Below, in pieces: positions 19,178-37,828 of a stretch of DNA of 64,000 nucleotides (positions are counted from its first letter, which is position 1; each line of letters starts with the position of its first letter). This stretch comes from Marinobacter sp. SS21 (GTDB lineage: Bacteria > Pseudomonadota > Gammaproteobacteria > Pseudomonadales > Oleiphilaceae). The notes beneath the pieces were generated by a model that did not search any database, was not told the origin of the DNA, and was given only the letters and a program-made list of their open reading frames with translations. The DNA lies in assembly GCF_028369065.1 (NCBI RefSeq), contig NZ_JAQNDA010000015.1:1-64000 (forward strand), in the 5' to 3' direction. The translations under genes were made by a program, and so were the position numbers.

Positions 19178-19266
19178 CGATCGACTCCGTTGCGTGCGGT
19201 CGCTGTCGCCAGCCGACCCGGTGATGGCCACTCCCCTGGCAGCAAGTATAGACATGGATCAAGGAC

Positions 19267-21022: not shown

Positions 21023-23128
21023 TCAGGCAGACTCGGTCGACGCCGGCGCTCCCACCGGCGCCAGCTGCCGGAACAGGGTCTCGAAACTGTCCGGCTGTTG
21101 CACCAGCAGCTTGGCCATCAACTCCAGCCCCAGCTGACGGTAACTGTCGAACTGCATTTCATCAAAGAACTGATCGACCGTGCTCTGGTCCGGAAAGCTG
21201 GGATTAGTCCGCCAGTAGGCGTAGATGTCGGCGCTGAGGCTCGGGCACAGCGCCGCCCGCAGGTACAGAATGTCGCCCTCACTGCCATCGGCGTAACGGA
21301 CCTTGCCCGTGGCGTAGGCCCGTTCCGCCATGCCCTCATCATTGACCCGGGCCAGGGCATCGGCACAGAGCTCGATTTCGGCACCGAAATCCGCCCGCAC
21401 CCGCTGCATGGCCCGGCCCAGGTCCGACAGGGTGGTGCCAGGATCGGCGGCCGCATCACAGACCACGATGTAGCGGCACTGGCGACGAACCAGCTCATAC
21501 AGCCCCAGGTTCTCGAAGTGGCCACCGTCGGACAGGTGAATGTCCGATTGGGTCTCCGCCAGTCCGATTCCGAACATCTCACGCAGCATGAACCGGTACC
21601 AGCTCGGCAACCAACGTCGTTGGTGGGCACTGTCAGGGTTGCGGGTCCAGAACCCGAGGCGGGCGTTGATCAGGGTCATCAGGAAGCTGATGGCGCGGGA
21701 GCGGGTGGCGTAGGTGTTGGGGTCCAGCGCCGCCCCGGACACCGAAAATGCGGTGGACAGGGTCAGCTCGCCGTCCAGGTAATCTTCGGTGCGACGGTAA
21801 CCGGTGGCACTGGAGCCACAGAACAGCGGGCTGAGCACCATCGAGTCCCCGCCCCGGCTGCGCAATTTCTGCTGGCGGGAACTGGCGGTGTTGAGGGTGG
21901 TGTTGATCAGGTGCAGCGGGCCGCCGGCCTCCGCCCGGATGTCCACCAGCCGGAAGTTCAGTGGCTTGGTTGACCGGCCCTTGCGGCGATCGGCGCGGGC
22001 GACATCCGCCACCACCGGCAGGTAGGCATTGGCCAGCCGGCCGCGATAAAAACTGTGCAGGGACAGCGTGTTGACGTTGCAGATCAACGCCAGCACCAGG
22101 GACAGCCCGAGCCAAAGATAGAACCCCGGCGATGACGGCAGCGGCGTGTGTGCGCATAGATGGTACAGCAGGGTTAGCAGGCCGTAGATCACCAACGACA
22201 GTCCCACTGCCGCCAGAGCCTCGCCCCGGGACCGTGCCGCTCGCAGTGACAGCACGCCGCTGGCGATGGGCAGCAGGTAGGTGAACTGGCGGGTCAGGGT
22301 CGCCACGCCCTGGTGATCGAAGTAGTGCAGCGCGGTCTCCTCCAGCCCGGTAAACACCGGCAATAGGCCCAGGCCCAGCGCCATCACGCCCACCGCCAGG
22401 CACTGCCCCATCAGCGAGCGAATGCGGTGTTCCGGCAGCCGCTGGAGGAAAAACTCCGAGGAGGTGGCCACCGCGAACAGCAGCAACGTCATCAGGTACA
22501 ACACCAGGGCACCCGCCCCGATCAACAACAGCAGCATAAAGCCGTCATGGCCGACGATGGCCTGGGCCCCCGGCAGATGCAGCCAGGTCGGCCAGGCGGT
22601 CGGCCACCAATTGGTGCTGGCCAGCGCCACGGCGCCGATCAGTAGCGGCAGCAACACCAGCAGATTCAGCAGCGTTCCGGCGAGAATCGATGCCCCCAGG
22701 GTCCAGCCGGACACCCCCTTGCCGTTGATCAGGTAGTTGCCATGGGCCCGCAACCAGTCCAGCACCGAGCCCTGACCATTGGCCAGCGGTGCGCCACCAA
22801 CATCGCGCTGCGCTCGCGCCGGAACATGCGCACGCAACCAGCTCAGGCAGGCGGCAATGTAGCCGCCACCGGACACCGAAGACAGATAATCCACCCGGTG
22901 CAGCAGGCCAGCCCGGGCCAGTGCCTGGAGCACACCCAGATTGAAGGTGGCCGAACGAATGCCGCCGCCGGACAGTGCCAGCCCCACCACCGGGGCGTCG
23001 TCGGGGACGTCGCCGGTGGCTTGGCGCCGGGTTCGCAGCCAGGCACGCTCCTGCCGTTGGACCTCACGGAAATCGCGGGTAAAGCCCGGACCGGATTCCA
23101 GCTCAAATTGCGGATTCTTGCCACTCAT
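21023..23128 (-). CDS. Patatin-like phospholipase with internal membrane segments
   Basis: 701 residues. The patatin fold is split. The oxyanion loop GLALSGGGIRSATFNLG (about residues 48-64) and the nucleophile region SSVSGGGYIAA (Ser at about 86) lie N-terminal; a block of several membrane helices follows (about 140-400); the catalytic Asp is in SDGGHFENLGLYELVRR (about 533). The Ser-Asp dyad suggests a lipid acyl hydrolase held at the inner membrane. The start ATG overlaps the stop of the upstream cytochrome gene by four bases (23125-23128), so it is the last gene of the oxidative cluster. No signal peptide is present; the substrate is unknown. Confidence 0.88.
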   Translation of the reverse strand: MSGKNPQFELESGPGFTRDFREVQRQERAWLRTRRQATGDVPDDAPVVGLALSGGGIRSATFNLGVLQALARAGLLHRVDYLSSVSGGGYIAACLSWLRAHVPARAQRDVGGAPLANGQGSVLDWLRAHGNYLINGKGVSGWTLGASILAGTLLNLLVLLPLLIGAVALASTNWWPTAWPTWLHLPGAQAIVGHDGFMLLLLIGAGALVLYLMTLLLFAVATSSEFFLQRLPEHRIRSLMGQCLAVGVMALGLGLLPVFTGLEETALHYFDHQGVATLTRQFTYLLPIASGVLSLRAARSRGEALAAVGLSLVIYGLLTLLYHLCAHTPLPSSPGFYLWLGLSLVLALICNVNTLSLHSFYRGRLANAYLPVVADVARADRRKGRSTKPLNFRLVDIRAEAGGPLHLINTTLNTASSRQQKLRSRGGDSMVLSPLFCGSSATGYRRTEDYLDGELTLSTAFSVSGAALDPNTYATRSRAISFLMTLINARLGFWTRNPDSAHQRRWLPSWYRFMLREMFGIGLAETQSDIHLSDGGHFENLGLYELVRRQCRYIVVCDAAADPGTTLSDLGRAMQRVRADFGAEIELCADALARVNDEGMAERAYATGKVRYADGSEGDILYLRAALCPSLSADIYAYWRTNPSFPDQSTVDQFFDEMQFDSYRQLGLELMAKLLVQQPDSFETLFRQLAPVGAPASTESA

Positions 23129-25437
23129 GGTCGGGCCTGGGCGATCTGGCAGGACGCGGGGGTGACCTCGTAGTCGGCAGTGGGCTGATCCTGGTGCACC
23201 TTCAGGTATTCCAGCAGCGCCAGGCGCTGGTTGTGGGTCAGCACCGGGCCGATGACGCCGCCCGGCAGCGGGTGGGCCTGCGGGTCGGCCTGATGTTGGG
23301 CCCAGATGGCCGGATCGGCGGCGAAGCCATGACCGGTGTTGCGGTTTCCGGACAGGGAGGTATCCAGCCAGAAGCCACGGGCATCCTCCGGCGCATCGGC
23401 GGCGGTGACCAGGCGATAGCCCAGGTGGACCGGGTCGTACTCACGGGAGCCCACCAGGAATCGCTCGCTGCGGGTTTCCGGCGGCGACAGCAACTGGTAG
23501 ATGGAGGGCACCGAGCCATTGTGCAAGAACGGCGGCGTTGCCCAGACCCCGGCCAACGGTCTGGGCTTGTAGCCCAGAATCTGCTGGGGCAGATCCAGGG
23601 TGCCGAAGCCTTCCAGACACTGTTGCTGCTCGTACCCGAGATTGTGGTCCTGGTAGTAGCGGTTCTTCACCAGAATGCCCACCAGGTTCAGCGCCGCGCC
23701 TTCGGTCAGACGGGTGACATCGAGGCCATCGAGGGTGATGGCGGCAGCGTCCTGGCCATGGACCAGTTGCCACAGCAATGCCACGGTCTGGCATTGCAGG
23801 TCACAGCGCAGTGGGTCGGGGGCCGGGGTGCGCACGTCGGGAATGGCCGGCAGCGGCGCGGCTACCGCCTGCAACGCCTGGTGGATGGCGGCGAACTGGG
23901 CCGCCGGCACCCGGGCCTCCGGGGAGCTGGTGGGGTAGGCCGCCAGCAACGCGGGCAGATCGCCCACCGGCAGGTCCTGGGCCTGGCGCAGGCGAATCAC
24001 TTCCCGCAAGCGGTAGCGAACCTGGCGCACCAGCTGACGGTTCAGCAGCGGCTCCAGCGCCTGCTGCAGATCCTGATCGGTGAGCCCGGCGGCCGAGAGG
24101 TCGTAGCGGCGGTCCATGAACCCGGCGGCCGTGGCGGGATCGGTTCCGATGTGCTCGACGGGGATCACCTCGATGCGCCACTCACCCTGCGACGACGGCT
24201 TCAGCGGTGCCAGGGCCTGCTGCCGGGCCTCCGACACCCGATGCGGACCATGGCAACCCTGGCAGTGCTGGACGAACAGCTCACCACCCTGCTGCGCCAA
24301 CTCCGGGTCCACCGGGCCGAAAACGTCCTCCGGCCAGGTGGGGGGTTGCAGGGTCTGCAGGGTTTGTTCAATGGCGTGCAGATCGGTGATGCGCACCGAG
24401 CTACGGAAACGCTCATCCGCGGGCAAGGGCCCCCCGGTGTCGTTCAGCAGCGGAATGCGCGCGCCCACCCCCATGGCCTCGCCAACGTTGCGGGCCAGCG
24501 GCTGCGACACCGAGCCGTTATACTGCACCCAGCTGAAGCGCCAGATGTCCCACAGGAACGGGTAGCTTACCGGCGCCGACGACACCTGGTAGTTGGCGGG
24601 CACCAGGTGGTCGCCGAACACGGTGTTGCCGATCCGACCCAGCGCATCGGTGCGGCCAAAGCCTTCTTCCCGCGGATAGAGGTGACCGAAGGGGTTGTTC
24701 TGGGGACTGCCGGCAAACCGGGCCAGGGTGGCCCACAGCTTATCCTTCAGCGCCGCCTTGCCCTGAGGGTAGCGGGTGCCCAGAACGTCACGGGCAAATT
24801 CATCAAATTTCAGCGGGTTGGCGGCGGTGTAGAACAACGAGGCCACCAGTTTCGGCGCAAAGGAACCGCGGCTGGTATCGCTGATGGCATGCATCGCCTG
24901 GCCACCGTCCACTCGGAGCGCTAGCCGCCGGTCACCCTGGGTGTAGTGCAACTCGCCGGTGTGGCAGGCGGCACAGGTGATGTCCAGCAACTCATCCCCG
25001 GTGACCGGGTCGAAATGCTTGGTGAACCCCACCGGCAGCTGATCCGGGTTGGCCTCGGTTGCCGCCGGGTCCACCAGAAAGCGGTACTGGCGCAGGTGAT
25101 CGGGATCGGCAAAGCGTTGGTCGGAAAACGGTAGCCGCAGGTTGACGAACCAGTCGTAACGGATTGCCGCTGAGGTGGCCCCCTGGGGCATGCTGGTGCC
25201 CTGCGGGGTGTAATAGTAGCGTTCCCGGTCCGGTGCGGACCGGGTCAGCCCCCAACCCTGATCGAAATAAACCACGTCGTCCACCGGCTCCAACTCAGGC
25301 AGCCCCTGAACCGGCCAGAGCACGTACCAGGCGAACAGCGCCGTCGCTGCGAGAGCCAACACCACGGCCGCCACAAGCAGCCATTTGAGCAGTTTGCCAC
25401 ACCAGCCCCAGAGCCGAAGTGAGGTGGACACAGTCAT
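23125..25437 (-). CDS. Membrane-anchored dihaem cytochrome c, RoxA/peroxidase-like
   Basis: 770 residues. An N-terminal membrane helix (about 15-40, LLKWLLVAAVVLALAATALFAW cut here for length) is probably an uncleaved anchor facing the periplasm. Two haem sites are visible: CAACH (about residue 155) and CQGCH (about 393). The block YKPRPLAGVWATPPFLHNGS (about 630-650) is the conserved signature of the dihaem cytochrome c peroxidase / rubber oxygenase (RoxA, RoxB) superfamily. RoxA cleaves poly-isoprene by dioxygenation, so an oxidative role on a hydrophobic molecule is possible, but a plain peroxidase or electron-transfer role cannot be excluded. The adjacent upstream gene encodes a second dihaem protein of the same type. 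Confidence 0.85.
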   Translation of the reverse strand: MTVSTSLRLWGWCGKLLKWLLVAAVVLALAATALFAWYVLWPVQGLPELEPVDDVVYFDQGWGLTRSAPDRERYYYTPQGTSMPQGATSAAIRYDWFVNLRLPFSDQRFADPDHLRQYRFLVDPAATEANPDQLPVGFTKHFDPVTGDELLDITCAACHTGELHYTQGDRRLALRVDGGQAMHAISDTSRGSFAPKLVASLFYTAANPLKFDEFARDVLGTRYPQGKAALKDKLWATLARFAGSPQNNPFGHLYPREEGFGRTDALGRIGNTVFGDHLVPANYQVSSAPVSYPFLWDIWRFSWVQYNGSVSQPLARNVGEAMGVGARIPLLNDTGGPLPADERFRSSVRITDLHAIEQTLQTLQPPTWPEDVFGPVDPELAQQGGELFVQHCQGCHGPHRVSEARQQALAPLKPSSQGEWRIEVIPVEHIGTDPATAAGFMDRRYDLSAAGLTDQDLQQALEPLLNRQLVRQVRYRLREVIRLRQAQDLPVGDLPALLAAYPTSSPEARVPAAQFAAIHQALQAVAAPLPAIPDVRTPAPDPLRCDLQCQTVALLWQLVHGQDAAAITLDGLDVTRLTEGAALNLVGILVKNRYYQDHNLGYEQQQCLEGFGTLDLPQQILGYKPRPLAGVWATPPFLHNGSVPSIYQLLSPPETRSERFLVGSREYDPVHLGYRLVTAADAPEDARGFWLDTSLSGNRNTGHGFAADPAIWAQHQADPQAHPLPGGVIGPVLTHNQRLALLEYLKVHQDQPTADYEVTPASCQIAQARP

Positions 25438-25455
25438 ATCAACGTTTCCTTGTAA

Positions 25456-27102
25456 TTAAAGACTCTTGAGGTATTCCACCAGCGCCCAGCGCGCGGACTC
25501 GTCCAGGTCGGTGCCATAGACATGGCCCTGGTTACTGTTGGCCGGTAGCCGGGTGTCGAAGTGGCTGCTGGCGGGTCCTGCCTCTGTGACATAGCCCACC
25601 TTGACCGGGTCCAGCTCGCGACTGCCGACGTGAAAGCTGGCGGGTCGTTGTTCCGGCGGCAATAGCAGGTGGTAGAGGGTGGGCACCGAGCCGTTGTGCA
25701 GGAACGGCGCGGTGGCCCAGATGCCGGCCAGCGGCCGGGCCTTGTACTGATCCGGGGCCTGGCTGGGGGTCGCGCCGTAGACACGCACGAAGTCCTCCAG
25801 ACTGGCCCCGAGGGCGTCCAGGGGATGCTGCAGGGTGGCGCCGAGGGCAGCATGAACCACCAGCTCGATGGTGCTGGCTTCACTGCCAAACGCCGGCCCG
25901 GCCAGCACCAGCTTCTTGCGCCCGGCCAGCAGGCCGGTCTGGGCCCGCGCCTGCAGGAAATTGGTGGCCATGGCGGGATCGGTGCCCACCTCGGTGCGGG
26001 GAACCAGCGTGACCTTCGCGGGCTGATTGGGCTGCTGATGATCACTGAGGGCGTGGCAAGCCAGGCAGTTATCCCGGTACAGCGTCCGGCCGGCGGTAAG
26101 CTTGTCCGGATCCAGGGCACCCAACAGGTCCTCCGGCCAACCCGGAGCGCGCAGCTGGTTATAGTGTCGCTGCAGCGTACCCAGATTGGGAATATCCACC
26201 GAACTGGTGTAGCCACCCAGAGCCCCGGGCTCGCTGAGGTTGGCGGTGCCGAATACCGCCAGCGCGGTGGTCACGTTCTGGATCAGCGGTCCCGGTGCCT
26301 GGTTCGGTGCCGAGCCGTTCCACTGCACCAGGTCCAGGTACGGCGCGCCCCACAGGAACGGATAGCTGACCGGCGCGTCGGCGGGATGGGCATTGCCGGG
26401 ACGGTTCAGCAGTTCCACCGCCACGGTATTGAAGATCTGGCCGAAGGCGTCCAGTCGGCCATGGCCATAGGCGGTCGCCGACTGGTTCATCCGCCGGCGC
26501 TGGTGCAGGTAATCCAGCCGTTGTTGCAGCGCCAGCCGCAGTGACTCCGGGTGGTCCTGCTCCAGTGCCAGGGCCAGCCGCTCGAGGCGGGCGGGATCGG
26601 CCAGCGTCGCCGCCAGGCTGGCAATGACCGCGTCCTCAAAACGGGAAAAATCGATCAGCGCCGGACCGCCCTCGATCAGCACCTGTTCGCCCCGGTAGCG
26701 GATCGCCCCGGTATGGCAGGCGGCGCAATTGAAGCCAGCCCACGCCGTGCCGGTGCCATCAACGGCCCGACTGAACCCCACCGGCAGGCTGTCCGGATTC
26801 AGCGCACTGGGTTGGGTGGGGATAAAACCCAGTTGCGCCAGGAACGCCGGCTCACGCACTGAGCCGGAACCATCCGCCCGTTCCAGATGCAACAGCCAGT
26901 CGTAAGGCAGCATGCGCGAGCCGAAGCTCAGGTGGTGCATCTGCTCCCGCACCGAGTCGCTCCAGCCCTGGGTCAGTTGGCGGAACTCGGTGTCCGGTTC
27001 GTTACCCGCCCCCGGTCCTGCCAGGAACACCATCGCTGCCACCAGCAGGCCAACCAGTCCCGCCGCGACCACCCACAGATACCGCCCACTACGACTCGCC
27101 AT
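25456..27102 (-). CDS. Second dihaem cytochrome c of the RoxA/peroxidase-like type
   Basis: 548 residues from the ATG at 27102, chosen over the ATG at 27108 because AGGG is well spaced for it. A signal or anchor helix at about 9-30 (YLWVVAAGLVGLLVAAMVF) exports it. Haem motifs are CAACH (about residue 125) and CLACH (about 349). ARPLAGIWATAPFLHNGSVP and the ELDPVKVGY block near the C-terminus match the neighbouring 770-residue protein, so the two are tandem paralogues. The smaller size reflects fewer inserts between the haem domains. A possible promoter lies in the 75-base gap upstream. Confidence 0.85.
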   Translation of the reverse strand: MASRSGRYLWVVAAGLVGLLVAAMVFLAGPGAGNEPDTEFRQLTQGWSDSVREQMHHLSFGSRMLPYDWLLHLERADGSGSVREPAFLAQLGFIPTQPSALNPDSLPVGFSRAVDGTGTAWAGFNCAACHTGAIRYRGEQVLIEGGPALIDFSRFEDAVIASLAATLADPARLERLALALEQDHPESLRLALQQRLDYLHQRRRMNQSATAYGHGRLDAFGQIFNTVAVELLNRPGNAHPADAPVSYPFLWGAPYLDLVQWNGSAPNQAPGPLIQNVTTALAVFGTANLSEPGALGGYTSSVDIPNLGTLQRHYNQLRAPGWPEDLLGALDPDKLTAGRTLYRDNCLACHALSDHQQPNQPAKVTLVPRTEVGTDPAMATNFLQARAQTGLLAGRKKLVLAGPAFGSEASTIELVVHAALGATLQHPLDALGASLEDFVRVYGATPSQAPDQYKARPLAGIWATAPFLHNGSVPTLYHLLLPPEQRPASFHVGSRELDPVKVGYVTEAGPASSHFDTRLPANSNQGHVYGTDLDESARWALVEYLKSL

Positions 27103-27139
27103 ACCCATCCCTGCATTTTTATTGGTATTGGGCGAGTAT

Positions 27140-27167
27140 ATTTACTCATTGATTTTATTAAGTAAAT
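27140..27167 (-). promoter_or_regulatory. AT-rich dyad and possible internal promoter in the oxidative cluster
   Basis: The only AT-rich gap in the cluster. ATTTACT (27140-27146) is repeated inverted as AGTAAAT (27161-27167). On the minus strand TATACT follows, 16 bases after CTTAAT, a tolerable -10/-35 pair in front of the second cytochrome gene. It could be an operator, a weak terminator stem or an internal promoter. Confidence 0.4.
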
Positions 27168-27177
27168 GAATTTTAGC

Positions 27178-28050
27178 TCAGACCCCGACCTGCTCGGCCC
27201 TGGCCGGGAGCTTACGTTTACGCAAGTACCGCCATAACTGGCTGGGGGGGCCAGCGGCCGGCTCGAAGTCACCATTCACGAAACTGACCAGGTAGTGCGT
27301 GTTCAGCAGATGACCACTGCCGGAGGCCGGGAACAGCCGCCCACTGAAACGCTCCGGATACCCCCCCACGCCAATGCGTGCCACGTAGTCTTCGGTGTGG
27401 TAGAAGTGTTCGGCGCGGATCTCCGGCATCGTCAGTTCGGTGGCGGCACTGGCGAAGGAGTAGAGCTCCAGCTTGGTCAGCAGTGACTGACGCTCGGTAC
27501 CAAGCCGTTCCCGCAACAGGTACAACGCATTGGTGCTGATGATACCGCCCTGGGAGTGAACGATCAGCACCACCTTGTCGCGGGTTTGCAGCGCCTCCTC
27601 CAGGATACTCGCGACCGAGCTCTCCAGGCTGGAGACGAATTGCATCTTGCGGCCGAGTGCGCATTCCAGCAGATCCAGCAGGGCACCGTCGGAGGGGTTG
27701 TGCATCAGGTTGATACGACGGTTGAACAGGGTGGCCAGGGCCCGGCCATTCACCCGCAGGGCGCTGCGGCTGGTGCAGATACCGTTGAGGAAGAACCACG
27801 CCTGGTTGTCGTCGATCTGCACCAACCGTTCCGGCACTTCATAGGGCAGATGGGGGCTCTGGCGGAACGGCGCGTAAATCGGCAGCAGCGCCGAATAGGC
27901 GGCATAGACAAAGTGGTGGTAAGTCTCGTAGTTATCCGGCTCTAGCTCCGACCAGGGCGCCGCGCGGTTCAGGGGTGACAGCACCCCGGGCAGGTACGGC
28001 AGATTACGGACCACCTGGACAGCACGGTCCCGGGCATCACGCAGGTTCAT
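27178..28050 (-). CDS. Alpha/beta-fold hydrolase, lipase-like
   Basis: 290 residues with AAGGAG before the ATG. The centre carries a nucleophile elbow VHSQGGIIS (Ser at about 168), and the strand VVLIVHSQGG plus NALYLLRERL fits the lipase/esterase fold. An upstream strand-turn WFFLNGICTS probably forms the oxyanion region. LNTHYLVSFVNGDF near the C-terminus may hold the catalytic His. There is no signal peptide, so it is probably cytoplasmic or membrane-associated. Membership of the oxidative cluster suggests it handles an ester or lipid in the same pathway. The substrate is unknown. Confidence 0.8.
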   Translation of the reverse strand: MNLRDARDRAVQVVRNLPYLPGVLSPLNRAAPWSELEPDNYETYHHFVYAAYSALLPIYAPFRQSPHLPYEVPERLVQIDDNQAWFFLNGICTSRSALRVNGRALATLFNRRINLMHNPSDGALLDLLECALGRKMQFVSSLESSVASILEEALQTRDKVVLIVHSQGGIISTNALYLLRERLGTERQSLLTKLELYSFASAATELTMPEIRAEHFYHTEDYVARIGVGGYPERFSGRLFPASGSGHLLNTHYLVSFVNGDFEPAAGPPSQLWRYLRKRKLPARAEQVGV

Positions 28051-28076
28051 GGCTGTGCTCCTTGTCGCTCGTGTCC

Positions 28077-28105
28077 CTTAATACAAGCGACAAGCTTGTG
28101 TTAAG
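28077..28105. promoter_or_regulatory. 12-bp inverted repeat ahead of the lipase-like gene
   Basis: CTTAATACAAGC (28077-28088) and GCTTGTGTTAAG (28094-28105) form a 12-bp stem with one mismatch and a 5-base loop. It lies in the 154-base gap between the catalase-fold gene and the lipase-like gene, the largest gap in the cluster. There is no U-run, so an operator or mRNA-processing hairpin is more likely than a terminator. Confidence 0.5.
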
Positions 28106-28204
28106 GAACGTCTTCTTAAAAGGCCCCGGCATTGCTGCAACCTCGCGCCTTGATTGGAAATGGCTCCAACAGCCAGAGCAGATCCGGAGTTAATCGGGGG
28201 CTCC

Positions 28205-29458: not shown

Positions 29459-29521
29459 CGTTGTTGTCCTCTCTACCTAGGGAGTTTGGGCATCACTTCG
29501 AACCAGCTCTGGCATTCGGCG

Positions 29522-30988: not shown

Positions 30989-31006
30989 GAGCTCCTCCTA
31001 TCCGTG

Positions 31007-32329
31007 CTAGAGCCGGGCCAGCCAGGCCTGGACCTCGGCTTCGCTCATCGAGCCCCGCAGGCCGTCGCGGATGGCCTCGTTGTTGGCGATGTTGAGCGCG
31101 GTCAGATGGGGATAGGGGCTGTACCACGCCTGGTTGATGAGCTGGTGCAGGCCCAGATAGTCCTTGAACCGCTGCTCGTGGCGGGCGCCCTCATGTACCA
31201 GCCAACGGGTTCTGGGGTAGCCGACGCCGTTGCTGAAAATCAGGTTGAGGCCCCAGGCCACCTTGTCGACGAAATCCACCATGTAGCTTTCCAGGCTGCC
31301 GTCGTAATTACTGGTGAACAGCAGGCGACGGCCATTATCCAGGATGGTCCAGCGGGCAAAGTGAATGGTATCGACGCCGTCCAGCCCCAGCAGTGGCACC
31401 CCGGCCAGGTTGCCGCGATTGAAGACATGACGCAGCGCCACCTGGGCCGACGCCAACAGGGCCCGGGCGGTGAGCTGGCGCAACCAGCCTGGTTTTACAT
31501 AGCCCACCGCGGCAAACGGGTTGTGGGCGGCGAAGTCTTCGGTGGCCCGCAACTGGTTGAGCCGACTCAGCGCCGGGCGGGTATGGAGCTCCGGGTCCTG
31601 GGACTCCCGCCAGCGCAGTGCCAGCAACGCGGTCACTAGTACCGGCCAGCCCCAGGCCACGATCAGCAGGCCAAGGGCCACCAGGGCGGCGAAACGGGCC
31701 TTTTCCCAGCTCCGCCACCACAGCCCCGGTTGTGCCCGCGCAGTCAGCGCCCAGGCCAGTTCGGGCTCGTTGGCGACAAACTCCACCACCCGCTGGCGCA
31801 GTCTGCGGGCGGAATCGACGTCCGCCGCCGTCAGGCCGTTGAGGAACGTCTGCAGCGCCTGTTGCAGCCGATCTTCCTGACGAATCTGTGCAGCGGTGCG
31901 GCCGATGGTGTTGATGTAATAAGCCTGGGACGGTATGCGCTGACGCTGCAGAAACGCCAGCCGGGTACCGGGACTTCGTCGGCGGGGGCCAGGGTAGTCC
32001 GGGCAGGCCGCATACAGCCGGTCCAGCCCGCCGGCATGTCGCGCCACCAGTTGCCGCAGGAACACCGTCACCGGCCCGTCCACGTTGGCGGTCAGCACCA
32101 GACTGGAATCGTAGGTGTCCGGGTGATCCGGCCCTTCCAGGATCAGCAGGCGGGCAAAATGCAGGTTGTCATGCTTGGCGAAGGGCAGGATGGCGTTGCC
32201 GGCGGGGTCCTGATTGATCTCCGCCAACACCGTCCGCAGCTCCGTCTCCCGAGCCTGGGCGATGGGCGCCCGCAGGGTCAGGTCGTTCTGGGGCATGGGG
32301 TGCAGCCGTTCCAGCAGGCCGTTGAGCAT
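31007..32329 (-). CDS. Unknown membrane-linked protein with an internal duplication
   Basis: 440 residues with GGGAGG before the ATG. It contains one hydrophobic stretch (about 210-240, AALVALGLLIVAWGWPVLVTALLAL). Two segments resemble each other: NLHFARLLILEGPD...LVLTANVDG (about 52-85) and TIHFARWTILDNGRRLLFTSNYDG (about 322-348). Each looks like the paired strands of a ferredoxin-like barrel, as found in DyP and chlorite dismutase relatives. The two halves could therefore form a dimeric alpha+beta barrel interrupted by a membrane hairpin. I do not recognise the family. It lies 18 bases upstream of the DyP-type gene and probably works with it. Confidence 0.75.
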   Translation of the reverse strand: MLNGLLERLHPMPQNDLTLRAPIAQARETELRTVLAEINQDPAGNAILPFAKHDNLHFARLLILEGPDHPDTYDSSLVLTANVDGPVTVFLRQLVARHAGGLDRLYAACPDYPGPRRRSPGTRLAFLQRQRIPSQAYYINTIGRTAAQIRQEDRLQQALQTFLNGLTAADVDSARRLRQRVVEFVANEPELAWALTARAQPGLWWRSWEKARFAALVALGLLIVAWGWPVLVTALLALRWRESQDPELHTRPALSRLNQLRATEDFAAHNPFAAVGYVKPGWLRQLTARALLASAQVALRHVFNRGNLAGVPLLGLDGVDTIHFARWTILDNGRRLLFTSNYDGSLESYMVDFVDKVAWGLNLIFSNGVGYPRTRWLVHEGARHEQRFKDYLGLHQLINQAWYSPYPHLTALNIANNEAIRDGLRGSMSEAEVQAWLARL

Positions 32330-32405
32330 GGCGAGCCTCCCGTTCGATACTCAATATCGGGTCAATGATCCAAACCCGGCGGGGAATCCAATCCCCGCCA
32401 ATGGC

Positions 32406-32891
32406 TTAAGCCGGGCCAGCAGTCTGTACCACCTCCGCCGTCGGCGTCGGGCATTCCAGGGCGAAATCGAGAATCCGGCGTTTCCCCCACCACACCTTGC
32501 CCAGATACAGCCCCGGCGCCACCTCCCGGATTTCATCGCGGATCGGACGGGCCAGCAGGGAGGTGGTGCCGTAGTCGATAACGATGGTGTCTTTGCCATC
32601 GAGCCAGCTCTTGTCCCGGTACGCCTTGGCGACGATCAGATTGAGCCCCCACGGCGACACCTTGTTCACCACCACCCCGCTGTTGAAGCCCGGCGCGAAC
32701 AGGTCAAACACCTTACCCTGCCAGGCCAGCAGCCGGGCCACCACCGAAAACAGCCCCGGAAACAGGCCTCCAGCCCAGATCGCGGTGCCCTGGGTTTCGC
32801 CCTGAGGCATGGTGCCGGGCTTGGCCTTCTTGTATACCTTGTCCAGTTCCTCTCTGGGCAATGACAGCCACTGCTCTATCTGTGTGTTCAT
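32406..32891 (-). CDS. Unknown protein of the oxidative cluster
   Basis: 161 residues from the ATG at 32891, preceded by GGGGGAGGAGG. Key features: an N-terminal helix (QIEQWLSLPREELDKVYKKA), a hydrophobic glycine-rich stretch (about 40-60, AIWAGGLFPGLFSVVARLLAW) and a beta-rich C-terminal half with KVSPWGLNLIVAKAY, TIVIDYGTTSLLARPIRDEI and GLYLGKVWWGKRRILDFAL. The last part resembles a lipocalin-like or lipid-binding barrel (GLYLGKVWW), but I do not recognise a named family. Tight spacing with the GMC oxidoreductase gene indicates co-expression. Confidence 0.75.
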   Translation of the reverse strand: MNTQIEQWLSLPREELDKVYKKAKPGTMPQGETQGTAIWAGGLFPGLFSVVARLLAWQGKVFDLFAPGFNSGVVVNKVSPWGLNLIVAKAYRDKSWLDGKDTIVIDYGTTSLLARPIRDEIREVAPGLYLGKVWWGKRRILDFALECPTPTAEVVQTAGPA

Positions 32892-32933
32892 GTTTGCCTC
32901 CTCCCCCATCTTCGGTCCCGGTGGTACCGGGAC

Positions 32934-34613
32934 TCAGTTGCCAGTCATGGCGGCCAGGTGGACCTCCGCCTGGTCGGCGCTAGCCGTGGCGACCCGGTTG
33001 GCCGGTGTCCGGGTATCGCCCTCCCGCAGATCGCGACGGTGGATCAGGTGAAACGCCACCCGCTCGGCCAGGGCGCTGATGGTGGCGGATGGGTTGACGC
33101 CGAGGGCCGCCGGTACCAGCGCGCCGTCCGCCACGTAGAGGCCGGGGTACCCCCAGACCTCACCGAATTCGTTGGTAACCCCCGTCAACGGCGATTCCGA
33201 CAGCGCACAGCCCCCCAGCGGATGGGCAGTCAGGGTCTTGCGCAGGGGCAGCCCAAGCAACGGACTCCGCCACAGGAAGCTGTTGACGAAGCGTCCCCCG
33301 GAGGCCCGGCTGAGCGCCTGCATATGGCCGATCATGTCGCGAAACATCGGCTGGCTCTTGCGGACCGGCCAGCGCAGCTCGAGCCCGCCCCGACGGTTCA
33401 ACAACAGTCGCCCGTTGGCGGCGTCGGTGCCCATGCCCAGATAGGGCAGGAAATGGGTCAGGTAGCCGGCCTCCAGCAGTTCATCCAGCTCGAAGGTGAG
33501 GCCGCCGCCGAAGGCATCGCTCAGGTAACGACGAGCCTGTCGAAGCAGCCGGCTGGCACGGCCGCGGGTGGGGATGGCACCGTTGAAATACCAGATGAAC
33601 GGATCCGGATAGCCCAGGTCCTCAATGTAGATGAACTGGTCCGGTTCGCGCCGGAATCCCACGCCTGCGGTGATGCTGGGGCCACGGCCTGGGTCCACCA
33701 CCCGGCTCTGGTAGCGGCTGCCGGCAAAGATGAAGTCGCCATTGCCGGAAAAGCCCTGCCCCAGGCGCGGCGAGAGTCGGGGCAAGGTGCGGTACTGGTG
33801 CTTGCAGCGCAGCAACAGGGCATTGGTGCCCAGGGTGCCAGCGGCCAGGATCACCCGTCGCGCCACCAGGTGCCGCAACGCCGGGGCGCCGTCGGCGGCT
33901 GCCCCGGCGGCCAGATCTACACAGGTAACGCGGTAGCCCTGGCTGAGCGGGGTAATGTTCACCGCCTGGTGCTCGGCCTTTACTTCCGCACCCATCTGCT
34001 CCGCCATTGGGATGTAATTCAGATCCAGGGTGTTCTTGGCATGAACGTGGCAGCCCAACAGACAGTTGCCACAGTATTCACAGCCCGGTAACCCGTCGCG
34101 ATCGCCGGTGCGCACGCAGATTGGCACCCGATCGGGCTGGCGACCGATGCTGACCACCGCGTCCTCAAAGACCCGGGTGCGATCCGGCAACCCGCGGGGG
34201 CTGCCCGCCGTCAGGGCCTTCGCCCCCAGCATATCGGCCGCCAGGGCGAAGTAAGGCCGCAGCCGCTGGGCGTCAAGCCGCCGGGGCCAGCCGGGCCGGT
34301 CGAAGATGAACGGCGGCGGTCGCAGATGGACGTTGAAATAGTGCAGGGAACCGCCCCCCACCCCGCATCCCTGCACCACGTCCATGGTGCGGAAACTGTG
34401 GTATTCGATAAAGCCGTCGCCGGGGCCGTGCGGCCCGGTGGAGCGGATGGTCCGCTCCGCCACCTGCCCCGGCGCCCGGGGAAAATCCAACCGGTCCCAG
34501 CGCCGGCCTTTTTCCAGCAGGCACACCGAACGGCCGGCCTGGGCCAGCCGACAGGCGGTGATGGCGCCGCCAAAGCCGGAACCGATTACCAGCACGTCAT
34601 AGTCTTTGTCCAT
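32934..34613 (-). CDS. GMC-type FAD oxidoreductase, cholesterol-oxidase-like
   Basis: 559 residues with GGAGGAG before the ATG. The N-terminal Rossmann motif is VLVIGSGFGGAITACRLAQAG (FAD binding, residues 7-27). VVQGCGVGGGSLHYFNVHLRPP (about 78-100) is the second flavin-contacting block. CEYCGNCLLGCHVHAKNT (about 178-195) is the cysteine-rich loop found in many bacterial cholesterol-oxidase/alcohol-dehydrogenase-like GMC enzymes. The C-terminus has TAHPLGGC and ADGALVPAALGVNPSATISALAE, with the His and Asn of the active site. It has no signal or Tat peptide. The likely reaction is oxidation of a hydrophobic alcohol to an aldehyde or ketone; the acceptor could be O2 or the cytochromes encoded downstream. 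The sterol-type substrate is inferred from similarity only. Confidence 0.88.
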   Translation of the reverse strand: MDKDYDVLVIGSGFGGAITACRLAQAGRSVCLLEKGRRWDRLDFPRAPGQVAERTIRSTGPHGPGDGFIEYHSFRTMDVVQGCGVGGGSLHYFNVHLRPPPFIFDRPGWPRRLDAQRLRPYFALAADMLGAKALTAGSPRGLPDRTRVFEDAVVSIGRQPDRVPICVRTGDRDGLPGCEYCGNCLLGCHVHAKNTLDLNYIPMAEQMGAEVKAEHQAVNITPLSQGYRVTCVDLAAGAAADGAPALRHLVARRVILAAGTLGTNALLLRCKHQYRTLPRLSPRLGQGFSGNGDFIFAGSRYQSRVVDPGRGPSITAGVGFRREPDQFIYIEDLGYPDPFIWYFNGAIPTRGRASRLLRQARRYLSDAFGGGLTFELDELLEAGYLTHFLPYLGMGTDAANGRLLLNRRGGLELRWPVRKSQPMFRDMIGHMQALSRASGGRFVNSFLWRSPLLGLPLRKTLTAHPLGGCALSESPLTGVTNEFGEVWGYPGLYVADGALVPAALGVNPSATISALAERVAFHLIHRRDLREGDTRTPANRVATASADQAEVHLAAMTGN

Positions 34614-34659
34614 GCCTCACTCCTCCCGGGCTTGTGCCGGGGCTGCGATCCCCTCCGGC

Positions 34660-35619
34660 TCAGGCCACGGTGATGGGCCGTGACGGGGCCACCGCGGACG
34701 GTGTGGCTTGCTGAAGCAACCGGTCCAGCTCCGCCGCCAGCAATTCCGGCGCCTCCAGGTCGACAAAGTGACCAATGCCGGCCAGCGGCCGCCATTCCAC
34801 CGGGCAACCGGCGTCCTGCTCGCTGTCCTGTGCCACCCGCGCCGACAGCGCCCGGTCCTCCAACCCCCACACCAGGCTCACCGGCACCTGAATCGGGGTC
34901 TGGTAGAGCGCATCAAGTCTGGTCCGTTGACGACCATGCAACAGGGTACGAACAAACGCCCGATAGTAATTAATCGGCCCCCGCATATCTTCGGCGCGGG
35001 CAAAGCGCTGAACGATTTCCCGCACCAGGTCGTGATCCATCTGCCCACGGGAGCCGGCGCGCAAGGTGAAGGACAGTTCCAGCAGCTTGCGTCCGGCCGC
35101 CGTGGTCAACAGGGCTTCCGGTAGCCAGGGCACCTGGAACGGCGGCACCCAGGGAATGCGCAGGGTCTGCAGGTCGCGGAACCGCAGCACCGCACGCACC
35201 AGGGTGCGGGGGTGGGTGCAGTTGACCACCACCAACCGGCTGATGCGGTCCGGGAAGCGGTGGGCGAACAGCCAGCCCAGGGCGCCGCCCCAGTCGTGCC
35301 CCAGCAGCAGCGGGCGCTCCAGGTCGAGGGCATCCATCAGCTGGCGAATGTCATCGGTCAGGGTGAAGATGTCGTAACCACTGTCGGGGTAGTCGGAAAT
35401 GGGATAGCCCCGCAGGTCGGGCGCATAGCAGGCCACATCCGGCAGCTGTCGCATCAGCGGGCGCCAGCCCAGCCAGCCCTCCGGGAAACCGTGCAGGCAA
35501 AACACCGGCCCCCGGGACAGGGGTGCCGGCCGCCCGACCCGGCCCACCGGCCGGGAAACGGCAACGTGAAAGCAAAGATCGTCGATGCTGAGGTTGCGGT
35601 GCTCGATGACACAGTTCAT
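34660..35619 (-). CDS. Alpha/beta hydrolase of the epoxide hydrolase type
   Basis: 319 residues from the ATG at 35619, with GGAGGAGGG upstream; a longer in-frame reading is possible but lacks coding character. FCLHGFPEGWLGWRPL (about 40-55) is the HGFPE oxyanion motif, and LLLGHDWGGALGWLFAHR (about 103-120) places Asp at the nucleophile elbow, as in epoxide hydrolases and haloalkane dehalogenases rather than esterases. VSLVWGLEDRAL and GIGHFVDLEAPE supply the acid and the catalytic His. Opening of an epoxide formed by the haem enzymes of the cluster would be consistent, though that is inference. Confidence 0.88.
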   Translation of the reverse strand: MNCVIEHRNLSIDDLCFHVAVSRPVGRVGRPAPLSRGPVFCLHGFPEGWLGWRPLMRQLPDVACYAPDLRGYPISDYPDSGYDIFTLTDDIRQLMDALDLERPLLLGHDWGGALGWLFAHRFPDRISRLVVVNCTHPRTLVRAVLRFRDLQTLRIPWVPPFQVPWLPEALLTTAAGRKLLELSFTLRAGSRGQMDHDLVREIVQRFARAEDMRGPINYYRAFVRTLLHGRQRTRLDALYQTPIQVPVSLVWGLEDRALSARVAQDSEQDAGCPVEWRPLAGIGHFVDLEAPELLAAELDRLLQQATPSAVAPSRPITVA

Positions 35620-35638
35620 GGTGCCCTCCTCCGCCGGC

Positions 35639-36310
35639 TCATCCGGCCCCGGCGGCCGGTTTCGCGCAGTCTTCGATGCACTGGAAATGGTGATACCAGT
35701 GGTGGGCCTTGATTCGCTTGGGGATGTCCCCCTGCTCGATGTGGCAACAGCAGGCCTGTCGTGGCCGCACCGTGAGGCATACCAGGATGATCTGTTCGTA
35801 GGCCCCGGTGAGTTTGATCCGGGCGAGGTAACGGCCACCGGCCAGCTGATCCGGAATGGTGAAGCCGACCACCGCCTGAAAGGACTCGTCCTGGGCCAGG
35901 GTCTTCTTATCCGGCGCCACCGTCACCGTGTCCTCGGTGCAGCCGAACGGCAACGGCGTCAGGGTGAATTCCCGCTGATGAGTCGAGGTGTTGGTGATCT
36001 GCAGTCGGTACTGGAAGCTGTCGCCGGGGCAGCCCTCCCAAACGATGCGACAGACGCAAGGGTCGGGGCAGGATTGTTCGGGAATCCCACAGCAGGGTTC
36101 ACCCTTGCCATGGCAGCCATGGCACACCGGGCAGTCATCATAGCGCCCATCCAGGGTCTGCTTGATCACATCCGCCGCACTGTAGGCGGTGGCCGCCAGC
36201 ACCCGCGGAGGCAGCAGCAGCAGGCTGATCGCCGACGGCAAGCACACGGGCGACGGCTCCCGGGCGGGCCCGCAACCGGCGGGGAAAGATTCACAGGATG
36301 CGTCATACAT
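35639..36310 (-). CDS. Cysteine-rich unknown protein of the oxidative cluster
   Basis: 223 residues, AAAGGAG before the ATG. The first 100 residues are cysteine-rich: SCESF, the paired motifs CPVCHGCHGKGEPCC (about 61-75) and CPDPCVCRIVWEGCPG. The middle (about 95-185) is a beta-sandwich-like stretch, FQYRLQITNTSTHQREFTL, resembling an immunoglobulin/CARDB or P-pilus-chaperone fold, ending RPRQACCCHIEQG. CPVCHGCH resembles a metal or haem site (CxxCH) but is unusual. There is no clear signal peptide. It begins three bases after the stop of the next gene upstream, which has a similar beta-domain. Confidence 0.75.
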   Translation of the reverse strand: MYDASCESFPAGCGPAREPSPVCLPSAISLLLLPPRVLAATAYSAADVIKQTLDGRYDDCPVCHGCHGKGEPCCGIPEQSCPDPCVCRIVWEGCPGDSFQYRLQITNTSTHQREFTLTPLPFGCTEDTVTVAPDKKTLAQDESFQAVVGFTIPDQLAGGRYLARIKLTGAYEQIILVCLTVRPRQACCCHIEQGDIPKRIKAHHWYHHFQCIEDCAKPAAGAG

Positions 36311-36313
36311 GGC

Positions 36314-37114
36314 TTAGCTCCTTTTCGGCGCGGTTTCGTTGGCGTTGCAGTACAGCCTCAGCCAGATGCGACCTGCATCGACCTTGATAAACCCCAGGTA
36401 ACGGCGCCCTTTCTTCAACCCGGGCGGCAGGGTCAGGCTGAGCGAACGCTCGATGCACTGTCCCGGAGCCAACGCTTGCCCCAGCGAGGGCCGGAAGCGG
36501 ATGCGGGCGGGTACCACCAGCGACCGGCGGAATTCCTGCACCAGTCGGTTGGCAAACTCCTCGTAGCCATCCTCGGCGCTGGTTGCCCTCAGGGTGTCCA
36601 CCAGGGTACGGCCGGCCCAGTTCACCTCTTCCAGCCACACCATCGAGACATCCCGCAGTTCGATCGGCACGTTACCCCGATTGCTCAGGGTCAGTCTTTG
36701 CTCAACGACCTGGCCGCTGTGACCATGCAACCGCAAATGGCTGGGTTCCACCAACAGCTCACGGTGAGCCAGCACCTCGACCTCCAGCCGTTCCTTCTGT
36801 TTCCCACACACCACCGTGCCCTGGTAACAGCCAGGAGCAGTGTCGCTGGTCAGCATCAGCGTGGCCCGGCTACGAGCGGTATCGTGGGGGCGAATCCGAG
36901 CCGACAACTGAATGTACCCGGGTGGCAACGCCTGATGATCCTTGCGCGGCCGCGGCACGGCCCGGGTCTCCAATTGCCGCACCCGGAGTTTGTAATCGGA
37001 GTCATTGATCAGGCCCAGTTCGCCGCGACAGGCGGTGGGCGGCCCGGAAAAGCAGAAGGGTCCCGGGCCCAACTGCCAATCGGTGCCCGGCTCGCCGTTG
37101 TATGGTCCTTTCAT
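36314..37114 (-). CDS. Unknown beta-rich protein of the oxidative cluster
   Basis: 266 residues from the ATG at 37114 with GGAGGAGG upstream. The fold looks like two Ig/CARDB-type beta domains: GLINDSDYKLRVRQLETRAV..., then LTLSNRGNVPIELRDVSMVW and LSLTLPPGLKKGRRYLGFIKVDAGRIWLRLYC. The phrases 'SNRGN' and 'LPPGLKKGRRYLGFIK' parallel 'TNTS' and 'LAGGRYLARIKL' in the next gene, so the two are probably related binding or scaffold modules. It has no signal peptide or catalytic motif. It is second in the 13-gene cluster. Confidence 0.75.
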   Translation of the reverse strand: MKGPYNGEPGTDWQLGPGPFCFSGPPTACRGELGLINDSDYKLRVRQLETRAVPRPRKDHQALPPGYIQLSARIRPHDTARSRATLMLTSDTAPGCYQGTVVCGKQKERLEVEVLAHRELLVEPSHLRLHGHSGQVVEQRLTLSNRGNVPIELRDVSMVWLEEVNWAGRTLVDTLRATSAEDGYEEFANRLVQEFRRSLVVPARIRFRPSLGQALAPGQCIERSLSLTLPPGLKKGRRYLGFIKVDAGRIWLRLYCNANETAPKRS

Positions 37115-37131
37115 CGCCACCTCCTCCCTGA

Positions 37132-37626
37132 TCAGTCACACTGTTCCGACTTGTGGGGGCGATAGTCCTCCGCCACCACCATGCCCTCACCACAGGTCTC
37201 GAATTCGAACACCTTGATCCCGAACAGAGTCAGGCAGAACCGGTAATGCAGCGGAAAATGGAATCGCATGGGTCGCAAGCCGAGCTGAACATCTACCTGG
37301 GGCAACTCGCGAATGCGTACGTCCAAATCCAGATCGACCTTGTTGTCGGTCTTGAGGATCGAATCGGTCTTGACGGTGGAGTCGGTCTTCACCGTGCTAT
37401 CGGTGTCGAGTTCGATCTTGGGCAACTCGGTCACCGCCAAATTGGCATTGAAGTCCGGCAGCTGGGTGACACCGACGTTGATCTGGGGCAGCTGGGTGAT
37501 ACCGATGCTGATTGGCGCCAACTGGGTGATGCGGATATCGTCCAAATTGAAATCCAGCCCACCAGTCAACTCGATCTCCGGCAGCTCCTTGATCTTGATA
37601 TCGGTGAGGTCAACTTCTGCGCTCAT
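37132..37626 (-). CDS. Low-complexity LP-repeat protein at the head of the oxidative cluster
   Basis: 164 residues from the ATG at 37626. Residues 5-115 consist of repeated units of about 13-14 residues of the kind IxITQLPxIxVGV: KELPEIELTGG, TQLAPISIGI, TQLPQINVGV, TQLPDFNANLAV, TELPKIELDT, and then three copies of a KTDS unit. It ends with RELPQVDVQLGLRPMRFHFPLHYRFCLTLFGIKVFEFETCG. The alternation of hydrophobic and polar residues suggests a beta-solenoid or extended strand ladder. Its position as first gene of the cluster suggests a scaffold. I do not recognise a family. Confidence 0.75.
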   Translation of the reverse strand: MSAEVDLTDIKIKELPEIELTGGLDFNLDDIRITQLAPISIGITQLPQINVGVTQLPDFNANLAVTELPKIELDTDSTVKTDSTVKTDSILKTDNKVDLDLDVRIRELPQVDVQLGLRPMRFHFPLHYRFCLTLFGIKVFEFETCGEGMVVAEDYRPHKSEQCD

Positions 37627-37828
37627 AGTGGGTTCCACCAGGCCAGTTGCGTGCGTTTTACAACGGAAACTGAAACTGCGGTGCCACTACGGGTAACAGA
37701 CGGGAATACCTACATCGGCATTCAGTCGAAAAAATATGGGGGCAATCACTTTCTGAAAGGACAGCAAAAATTCCCTTTTGCCATGGCATCAATGTAGGTG
37801 AGAAATCCGTTCCAGGCAAGCACGGCGG

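Follow-up and report, generated by a model that had tools for sequence, protein, structure and literature searches.

Two joined modules of a Marinobacter gene cluster with a probable role in fatty acid oxygenation and hydroperoxide processing

Introduction

Do genes for a patatin, two RoxA-like di-haem cytochromes, two alpha/beta hydrolases, a catalase-fold protein, a DyP-type peroxidase and a GMC oxidoreductase that follow each other on one strand belong to a single oxidative system, and on which substrate would such a system act? The question is raised by a cluster of 13 genes located at positions 21023-37626 in a stretch of 64,000 nucleotides from Marinobacter sp. SS21 (contig NZ_JAQNDA010000015.1, positions 1 to 64,000), which we refer to as the window. 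An earlier note on this DNA had described the cluster as one 13-gene system acting on a hydrophobic substrate such as a lipid, a sterol or a polyisoprenoid. We found that the 13 genes consist of a ten-gene module (LPX168 to ABH290) and a three-gene module (CYT550, CYT770 and PAT701), which have been joined in this lineage. On balance, we lean towards reading the region as a modular cluster for the oxylipin-type oxygenation of fatty acids and the processing of hydroperoxides. Judged by their relatives elsewhere, the two modules probably release fatty acids, oxygenate them and process the hydroperoxides, as a bacterial counterpart of the signalling-lipid pathways of plants, fungi and animals.

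Two modules within Marinobacter

The 13 open reading frames (ORFs) occupied the whole span on the minus strand, in the transcription order LPX168, IG268, IG223, ABH320, GMC559, UNK167, UNK440, DYP488, CAT417, ABH290, CYT550, CYT770 and PAT701. The single-strand run with short gaps described earlier was thus confirmed, with intergenic gaps of -4 to 154 bases, and the strong ribosome sites of the earlier description were borne out to the extent that a purine-rich, ribosome-site-like stretch was present in most of the gaps.

The claim of one 13-gene system did not hold, since each module was found without the other within the genus. In M. changyiensis (G019, which is also locus L045), the genes from LPX168 to ABH290 were present in the same order with 54% to 71% identity, and the genes for the cytochromes and the patatin were absent. 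The same ten genes were carried by M. caseinilyticus (L044; G567), and most of them were identified in 2 Hahella loci, L043 and L046, in both of which LPX168 was unrecognised and in the latter of which UNK167 was not picked as an ORF. Conversely, the genes for CYT550, CYT770 and PAT701 were located together in another Marinobacter genome (G538), with the LYS344 gene close by, and the ten genes were all absent from the 35 kb inspected; in the window, LYS344 is located immediately upstream of the ten genes. A repeat search of positions 26900-38000 gave nothing readable as an insertion scar. Of the Marinobacter genomes sampled, 2 of 61 contained CYT550 and 3 of 62 contained UNK167, and the window genome was the only one with both.

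Co-occurrence in other genomes had been set beforehand as the test of the cluster. The full set of 13 genes recurred in none of the other Marinobacter genomes sampled, whereas the ten genes, the three genes and a four-gene core within the ten were each identified elsewhere. Given that a second Marinobacter species keeps the order of the ten genes and that the core is present in several phyla, the cluster is more than a chance assembly.

A four-gene core in several phyla

The core was delineated by a scan for UNK167 in one genome per species, which gave 232 relatives, of which the best 80 were retained with their flanks (hereafter the 80 loci). UNK167 itself was picked as an ORF in 66 of them, although it was the query for every locus, and UNK440, DyP and CAT relatives were identified in 57, 58 and 50 loci, respectively. 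In 40 loci, each of the four core genes was intact and unfused, while the remainder were cut by contig ends (18 loci were shorter than 15 kb), fused, replaced or lost in the picking of ORFs. The order UNK167-UNK440-DyP-CAT and the strand were identical in 38 of the 40 intact loci, and the median gaps between the core genes over these 40 were only 30, 9 and -4 bases. The hosts included nitrifiers, methanotrophs, Halomonas, Alteromonas, Marinobacter, roseobacters and Verrucomicrobia.

The distance matrices of the four core genes agreed with each other, with Spearman coefficients of 0.795 to 0.969; those of UNK440, DyP and CAT reached 0.955 to 0.969 across loci, which was attained in none of 1000 permutations. 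Furthermore, DyP and CAT were fused into a single protein of 877 to 1022 amino acids in seven loci from Halomonas, Bisbaumannia and Litchfieldella, which argues that the two proteins work on one path.

Two of the core proteins were unfamiliar, with best Pfam E-values of 0.035 (UNK167) and 0.0094 (UNK440), neither of which passed the cut-off. The AlphaFold2 model of UNK167 had a moderate predicted local distance difference test (pLDDT) score of 74.5. Its clearly top structural match was Tcur_1030 (4mve; Z 12.6 over 131 residues at 3.1 Å), followed by lipocalin-like proteins, such as prostaglandin D synthase, at Z of about 6 to 7 among other barrels. The model of UNK440 had a pLDDT score of 89 and was nearest in fold to WhiE-ORFI (9lmn, Z 14.5), and a hydrophobic segment was located in the middle of the protein in 53 of 55 relatives.

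DYP488 scored 95.0 bits against the DyP superfamily model TIGR01413, slightly under the cut-off of 100.5, and the DyP homolog in L056 scored 73 bits. An Asp, a His and an Arg column were invariant in all 57 aligned rows, which we take to be the catalytic Asp, the proximal His and the distal Arg. These residues and the sub-threshold score suggest that DYP488 is a DyP-type peroxidase. In a crude test for an N-terminal hydrophobic segment, 0 of 48 DyP, 2 of 47 CAT and 16 of 67 UNK167 proteins were positive, as were 31 of 48 of the alpha-dioxygenase-type proteins and 20 of 42 of the CATL proteins described below.

A simpler relative of the core was also noted in genome G072 (L024, positions 9438-13137), which contained a single-domain UNK440 relative of 262 amino acids, a DyP of 531 amino acids and a catalase-fold protein of 382 amino acids with a distal His, in a stretch where genes resembling a resolvase and a relaxase were recognised by eye.

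Oxygenases beside the core

In 58 of the 80 loci, we identified a protein similar to two proteins of about 1000 amino acids with the animal-haem-peroxidase-type domain PF03098, for which the best solved relatives were plant fatty-acid alpha-dioxygenases (E 1e-64). For the rice enzyme, the residues described in the accessible part of PMC8720084 are Tyr379, His157 and His382 as ligands of the haem, and His311, Thr316 and Arg559 near the carboxylate of the fatty acid. An alignment was made of 48 of the 61 ORFs of this type and 2 references (G134 and G507), which duplicate the L090 and L111 genes, and all six residues were kept in 49 to 50 of these 50 rows. The partner of the core thus resembles the plant and cyanobacterial alpha-dioxygenases (same source; PDB 4kvj and 4hhr) in the catalytic Tyr, the two haem-ligating His and the residues that bind the carboxylate, but differs from them in that the bacterial proteins are about 980 amino acids long and in that 41 of the 58 loci add a second catalase-fold gene, CATL. 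In L103 (6537-7964) and L167 (6095-7522), the CATL slot beside the alpha-dioxygenase-type gene was occupied by a cytochrome P450, which we liken to the fungal dioxygenase-P450 pairing described in the accessible part of PMC13049297.

Other loci contained other oxygenases. A large cytochrome, CYT803, was identified in 18 loci, accompanied by a GMC oxidoreductase in 13. Tandem RoxA-like cytochromes adjoined UNK167 in 8 of the 80 loci, at the position otherwise taken by UNK440-DyP-CAT; the pair in L079 was encoded on the opposite strand. A comparison of the 9 loci with CYT550 and the 63 loci with the core, in which L122 starts at a contig end, showed no overlap, and the window is the exception that holds both. 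In total, 69 of the 80 loci contained an alpha-dioxygenase-type enzyme, CYT803 or a CYT550-type cytochrome. No match to PF03098 was obtained in the window genome, whereas the control genomes matched. A search of 7 genomes for lipoxygenase (PF00305) gave no match, which is no evidence of absence because none was obtained in the control genomes either.

Two further observations concern single loci. In Roseobacter cerasinus (L095, 10475-17756), genes for a molybdopterin aldehyde-oxidase pair were located between UNK167 and the alpha-dioxygenase-type gene; alpha-dioxygenases serve to make fatty aldehydes, according to the accessible part of PMC8720084. In Nitrosomonas sp. Nm34 (L047, 1779-4628), the alpha-dioxygenase-type gene was split into four ORFs, owing either to decay of the gene or to sequencing errors.

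The di-haem cytochromes

CYT550 and CYT770 scored 559.9 and 478.8 bits against NF040606 (cut-off 150 bits) and thereby fall within the di-haem cytochrome c peroxidase subfamily. Both contained the RoxA-like domain PF21419 and two CXXCH motifs, which were 220 apart in CYT550 (CAACH and CLACH) and 237 apart in CYT770, and their best solved match was RoxA (4b2n). The name RoxA-like given to them in the earlier note is therefore apt as far as the domain and the subfamily are concerned, but the Phe317 essential to RoxA is missing. The residue positions of RoxA, like those of the rice alpha-dioxygenase above, were counted by hand on printed alignments and were consistent with the numbering in the papers. 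On the 4b2n alignment, Phe317 was replaced by Leu in CYT550 and by Met in CYT770, and Phe301, a residue of the haem pocket, by Gln in both, while position 302, which is located between the haems, was Trp in CYT550, as in PA2077 of Pseudomonas aeruginosa, and Tyr in CYT770. The accessible part of PMC4496055 states that the activity of RoxA requires Phe317 and that Gln replaces Phe301 in PA2077 and PA2078. Models of RoxA, RoxB and RoxC gave only 38 to 64 bits for the window cytochromes, as compared with cut-offs of 900 to 1000. The di-haem architecture and PF21419 are hence shared with the rubber oxygenases RoxA and RoxB, whereas the model scores and Phe317 are not, and an identity of CYT550 or CYT770 as a rubber oxygenase was set aside on these scores and on the changes at positions 317 and 301.

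PA2077 and PA2078 provide the closer comparison. These enzymes represent the FadCcp subfamily and constitute the oleate-diol synthase operon, with a 10S-dioxygenase and a 7,10-diol synthase; PA2077 is toxic when overexpressed, and PA2078 relieves the toxicity (PMC4496055, accessible part). The latter would explain why such enzymes occur in pairs. As in the window, the enzymes encoded by PA2078-PA2077 are tandem RoxA-like di-haem proteins with Gln at RoxA position 301 and two CXXCH motifs each, spaced 245 and 235 there and 220 and 237 here. That part of the paper names no gene of the patatin, DyP, catalase-fold, GMC or UNK kinds for the operon.

A search with CYT550 in a sample of the class identified a relative in 18 other genomes, 15 of which were inspected. 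In 4 of these the cytochrome was linked to another family of the cluster, namely a catalase-fold gene (G713 and G821), a patatin (G603), or an alpha-dioxygenase-type gene and UNK167 (G808). In the plasmid pNGR234a of Sinorhizobium fredii, five consecutive genes encoded an incomplete cytochrome, a catalase-fold protein, a hypothetical protein, a second cytochrome and a protein annotated as a patatin, the last of which had no BLAST similarity to PAT701.

Catalase-fold proteins with an altered distal residue

That CAT417 has a catalase fold, as proposed earlier, was evident through its relatives only. The best solved match to the family profile was the allene oxide synthase domain of coral (PDB 1u5u). 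Among the CAT members aligned, which comprised 47 of 51 ORFs (those with 380 to 500 amino acids) and 7 fused members, the distal His of catalases was replaced by Asn in all 47 separate and all 7 fused proteins, and it was replaced by Gln in all 42 CATL members. The proximal Arg-x3-Tyr was kept in all 54 CAT and 42 CATL proteins. The distal His was retained in remoter relatives in G072 and Methylobacterium currus. Given Asn in 54 of 54 members, an assignment of CAT417 as an ordinary catalase is improbable and was rejected. The replacement by Asn or Gln throughout CAT and CATL instead favours the chemistry of an isomerase over that of a scavenger.

The coral enzymes cAOS and cHPL share the catalase fold and the proximal Arg-x3-Tyr with CAT, and they have a fatty-acid oxygenase as partner, which is fused in coral and encoded by a neighbouring gene here. 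They differ at the distal side, where coral has Thr-His (Thr66 and His67 are kept, according to the accessible part of PMC5617202), CAT has Gly-Asn and CATL has Gln. A haem-adjacent Asn recurs in several P450s that rearrange hydroperoxides or endoperoxides, in which it is not always required (accessible part of PMC13049297). In the fungal dioxygenase-P450 fusions and the cyclooxygenase cascade treated in the same text, an oxygenase likewise precedes a haem isomerase, with a distal Asn beside the haem in several of the P450s. Unlike these fusions, the bacterial genes are separate, a catalase fold replaces the P450 in 41 loci, and DyP, lipocalin-like and ABM-like partners are added. No comparable cluster surrounded the catalase-fold gene of Nostoc in the region examined.

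Genes located behind the core

The gene that follows CAT was located on the same strand and less than 300 bases away in 29 of 47 cases. In 13 of the 47, it encoded a lipid hydrolase from one of four families: ABH290-type (4 cases), patatin-type (5 cases, of which that in L056 was checked against Pfam), Tle1-like phospholipase (3 cases) and a metallo-beta-lactamase-fold protein (1 case), presumably of the NAPE-phospholipase D-like kind.

A protein with TIR and Ig/ASH-like domains was encoded directly behind CAT in L064 (14623-16665) and L071 (14588-16633), with a ThsB-like match in PADLOC for L064, and a protease-like pair, judged by eye, was located behind UNK167 in L098. Nine of the 13 window proteins were scanned with PADLOC, none of which gave a match, and the window cluster was set aside as a candidate defence system on this result.

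Gene content of the window

The 13 genes are listed in Table 1. A start at ATG is possible for all of them; that of ABH320 is the ATG at 35619, which gives 319 amino acids and is nested in a longer GTG-started frame from 35838. The widest gaps were 154 bases (CAT417-ABH290), 76 bases (UNK167-UNK440) and 69 bases (ABH290-CYT550), and no terminator-like site was seen in these three, which carries little weight as the promoter scan gave zero sites region-wide.

Table 1. Genes of the cluster in transcription order, with positions in the window
Gene	Position	Strand	Features
LPX168	37132..37626	-	Start of ten-gene module; short, repeat-rich, with an internal 30-base direct repeat; no Pfam family; relatives in 2/80 loci, both Marinobacter; 69% identity and same place in M. 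changyiensis
IG268	36314..37114	-	Ten-gene module; possibly Ig-like (Pfam match not significant); 54% identity to M. changyiensis gene; 4/80 loci
IG223	35639..36310	-	Ten-gene module; Cys-rich, possibly Ig-like (Pfam match not significant); 60% identity to M. changyiensis gene; 4/80 loci
ABH320	34660..35619	-	Alpha/beta hydrolase (PF00561, E 3e-25); GHDWGG, Asp nucleophile (epoxide-hydrolase/haloalkane-dehalogenase type); 4/80 loci
GMC559	32934..34613	-	GMC flavin oxidoreductase (PF05199, PF00732), distantly like cholesterol oxidase
UNK167	32406..32909	-	Core gene 1; predicted lipocalin/FABP-like barrel
UNK440	31007..32329	-	Core gene 2; two predicted ABM/SchA-like ferredoxin-fold halves around a membrane hairpin
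DYP488	29522..30988	-	Core gene 3; putative DyP-type haem peroxidase; Asp174, His322 and Arg residues kept
CAT417	28205..29458	-	Core gene 4; catalase-fold haem protein; Asn97 for distal His; proximal Arg363-x3-Tyr367 kept
ABH290	27178..28050	-	End of ten-gene module; serine-esterase-like alpha/beta hydrolase, HSQGG; 64% identity in M. changyiensis
CYT550	25456..27108	-	Start of three-gene module; RoxA-like di-haem cytochrome; N-terminal hydrophobic segment; 64% identity in G538
CYT770	23125..25437	-	Three-gene module; second, larger RoxA-like di-haem cytochrome; N-terminal hydrophobic segment; 73% identity in G538
PAT701	21023..23128	-	End of three-gene module; patatin-like membrane lipase (PF01734 over cut-off); 66% identity in G538

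The protein classes proposed from the sequence were recovered for the patatin, the two RoxA-like cytochromes, the hydrolase with the GHDWGG motif and the GMC oxidoreductase, whereas DYP488 and ABH290 fell slightly under the cut-offs, the latter with 19.6 bits against DUF676 (PF05057; cut-off 20.3). The earlier count of five unknowns was correct, in that no family passed its cut-off for five of the 13 proteins. PAT701 contained the motifs GGGIRS, SVSGGG and SDGGHFEN and six hydrophobic segments. GMC559 scored 231 bits against the cholesterol oxidase model NF058674, far from the cut-off of 850, and was therefore rejected as a cholesterol oxidase. ABH320 has its GHDWGG motif at position 108 and with it the Asp nucleophile expected of an epoxide hydrolase of the alpha/beta hydrolase fold, a nucleophile that is also present in haloalkane dehalogenases.

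Elsewhere in the window, an ORF of 3916 amino acids on the minus strand (2737-14487) combined RHS and FG-GAP repeats with bacterial Ig and cadherin-like domains. Four small ORFs at 109-2049 were scanned and gave no Pfam matches, and the GC content of the first 2 kb was low (0.455). Downstream of the cluster, two GGDEF proteins were encoded on the minus strand (17423-20865); one of them contained a 7TMR-DISM sensor, the other an NMT1-like periplasmic binding domain. A gene on the plus strand (16110-17069) for a protein of the 2-oxoadipate dioxygenase/decarboxylase family adjoined that for arginine N-succinyltransferase.

Evaluation of alternative explanations

Judged by the genes that adjoin the core elsewhere, fatty acids are favoured over rubber, sterols and hydrocarbons. 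The oxidative gene set and the hydrophobic, lipid-like substrate proposed in the earlier note are supported, whereas those three substrates are disfavoured. Support for fatty acids comes from the alpha-dioxygenase-type partners with their conserved residues and from the occurrence of one of three oxygenase types in most of the loci. To this are added Gln301 in both cytochromes, the match of the CAT profile to the coral allene oxide synthase and the lipid hydrolases behind CAT. Further support is provided by the exchange of cytochromes and core in 8 loci, the P450 in the CATL slot, the gene row in pNGR234a, the predicted barrel of UNK167 and the agreement of the core distances.

Several observations weigh against this reading. 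The complete set of 13 genes was confined to the window genome, with the modules otherwise apart in the 61 or 62 Marinobacter genomes sampled. No match to NF040606, PF03098 or CYT803 was obtained in M. changyiensis and M. caseinilyticus, in which the ten genes are present, and lacking these three oxygenase types their module may draw hydroperoxides from elsewhere or act otherwise, for example in the removal of lipid peroxides. Genes for GMC559, ABH320 and the Ig-like proteins were identified in only 4 of the 80 loci, from Marinobacter and Hahella, and the 80 loci are themselves weighted towards the nearest relatives and a few genera, with several loci per genus, so that the counts are not independent. 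The likeness to PA2077 and PA2078 is one of residue positions and gene arrangement, not of a tree; RoxA position 316 is Ala in both window cytochromes, so that the Lys of PA2077 is not shared, and the Ser of PA2078 at position 302 is absent from both. None of the other families was located near the CYT550 relative in 11 of the 15 genomes inspected, nor were other cluster families found beside the cytochromes in the regions of Methylobacterium radiotolerans and Ruegeria pomeroyi. Finally, the cytochromes appear to be exported, whereas DyP, CAT and UNK167 mostly have no N-terminal hydrophobic segment, so that the product would have to cross a membrane.

A defence against lipid peroxides, in which the core would clear toxic lipid hydroperoxides and repair membranes while the lipases excise oxidised chains, accounts for the two Marinobacter species with the ten genes but no oxygenase. 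It is also in line with the predominance of peroxidase and catalase-fold enzymes, with the lipases that adjoin the core, and with the toxicity of PA2077 and its relief by PA2078 as reported in the accessible part of PMC4496055. We consider it somewhat unlikely, given that the catalytic His is gone in all 54 CAT and 42 CATL proteins and that the core mostly adjoins an enzyme of a hydroperoxide-making kind, one of the three types being present in 69 of the 80 loci. It is also unlikely, and a little more so, that the two modules are unrelated, serve different purposes and became adjacent by happenstance in the window genome. Their separate occurrence in Marinobacter would fit, as would the 11 of 15 genomes without such neighbours and the location of the cytochromes and patatin of G538 near LYS344, the gene that flanks the ten in the window, as though these had entered at that site. 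However, tandem cytochromes recur beside UNK167 in 8 loci and in G808, and a cytochrome is accompanied by a catalase-fold gene in pNGR234a, G713 and G821 and by a patatin in pNGR234a and G603.

Two other explanations were considered very improbable. In the case of polyisoprene or rubber degradation, the RoxA-like enzymes would attack a polyisoprenoid and the other genes would process the keto-aldehydes, as PF21419 in both cytochromes and the top solved match to RoxA might suggest, but scores of 38 to 64 bits against models with cut-offs of 900 to 1000, Leu or Met in place of Phe317, and Gln in place of Phe301 argue against it. Least probable is a biological-conflict or immune-type system that damages lipids by means of patatin, phospholipase and TIR proteins: the TIR protein behind CAT in L064 and L071, the ThsB-like match in L064 and the protease-like pair recognised by eye in L098 would be expected of such a system, whereas TIR proteins were present in only 2 of the 80 loci and the nine window proteins scanned had no PADLOC match.

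Discussion

From the gene content, the conservation, the module borders, the key residues and the kinds of neighbours, we infer a substrate, an order of steps, compartments and products for the fatty acid pathway that we favour. PAT701 and ABH290 would cut acyl chains from lipids, and the exported CYT550 and CYT770 would put O2 on an unsaturated fatty acid, probably outside the cytoplasm, with part of the hydroperoxide being converted, as PA2077 and PA2078 do. UNK167 would bind the lipid product, which the membrane protein UNK440 may hold or present, and DYP488 may either reduce or oxidise it. CAT417, with Asn97 replacing the His of catalases, would rearrange or split the hydroperoxide. ABH320, as a putative epoxide hydrolase, would open an epoxide, and GMC559, as a putative alcohol oxidase, would oxidise an alcohol.

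A broader proposal is possible but more tentative, and we would not call it probable: that the loci in several phyla represent a cascade like those of eicosanoids and oxylipins. In such a cascade, a hydrolase would release the lipid, and the oxygenase could be any of three interchangeable kinds, namely an alpha-dioxygenase-type enzyme, CYT803 or a tandem pair of di-haem cytochromes. The core would stay the same and consist of a catalase-fold hydroperoxide isomerase with Asn or Gln for the catalytic His, a DyP, an ABM-like protein in the membrane and a lipocalin-like protein as carrier.

While the parts are of known kinds, the literature searched contained no description of their combination, of the catalase folds with Asn or Gln, or of a core that stays fixed as its oxygenases are exchanged. 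The search covered the gene set, the di-haem enzymes, alpha-dioxygenase with DyP, and oxylipins in Marinobacter, with subscription papers and preprints outside its scope, and no description of this cluster was present among the matches listed. The remark in the earlier note that no described operon with this set was known is in agreement with these matches.

Few cases of oxylipin-type chemistry are known in bacteria, and the roles of prokaryotic oxylipins are largely unidentified according to the accessible part of PMC5155153. The fatty acid reading predicts that catalase folds with a distal Asn or a distal Gln convert hydroperoxides, and it gives UNK167 and UNK440, which represent families without a Pfam model, a testable role. 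If true, a conserved system with exchangeable oxygenases would provide ready genes for asking what oxidised fatty acids do in the bacteria that carry it.

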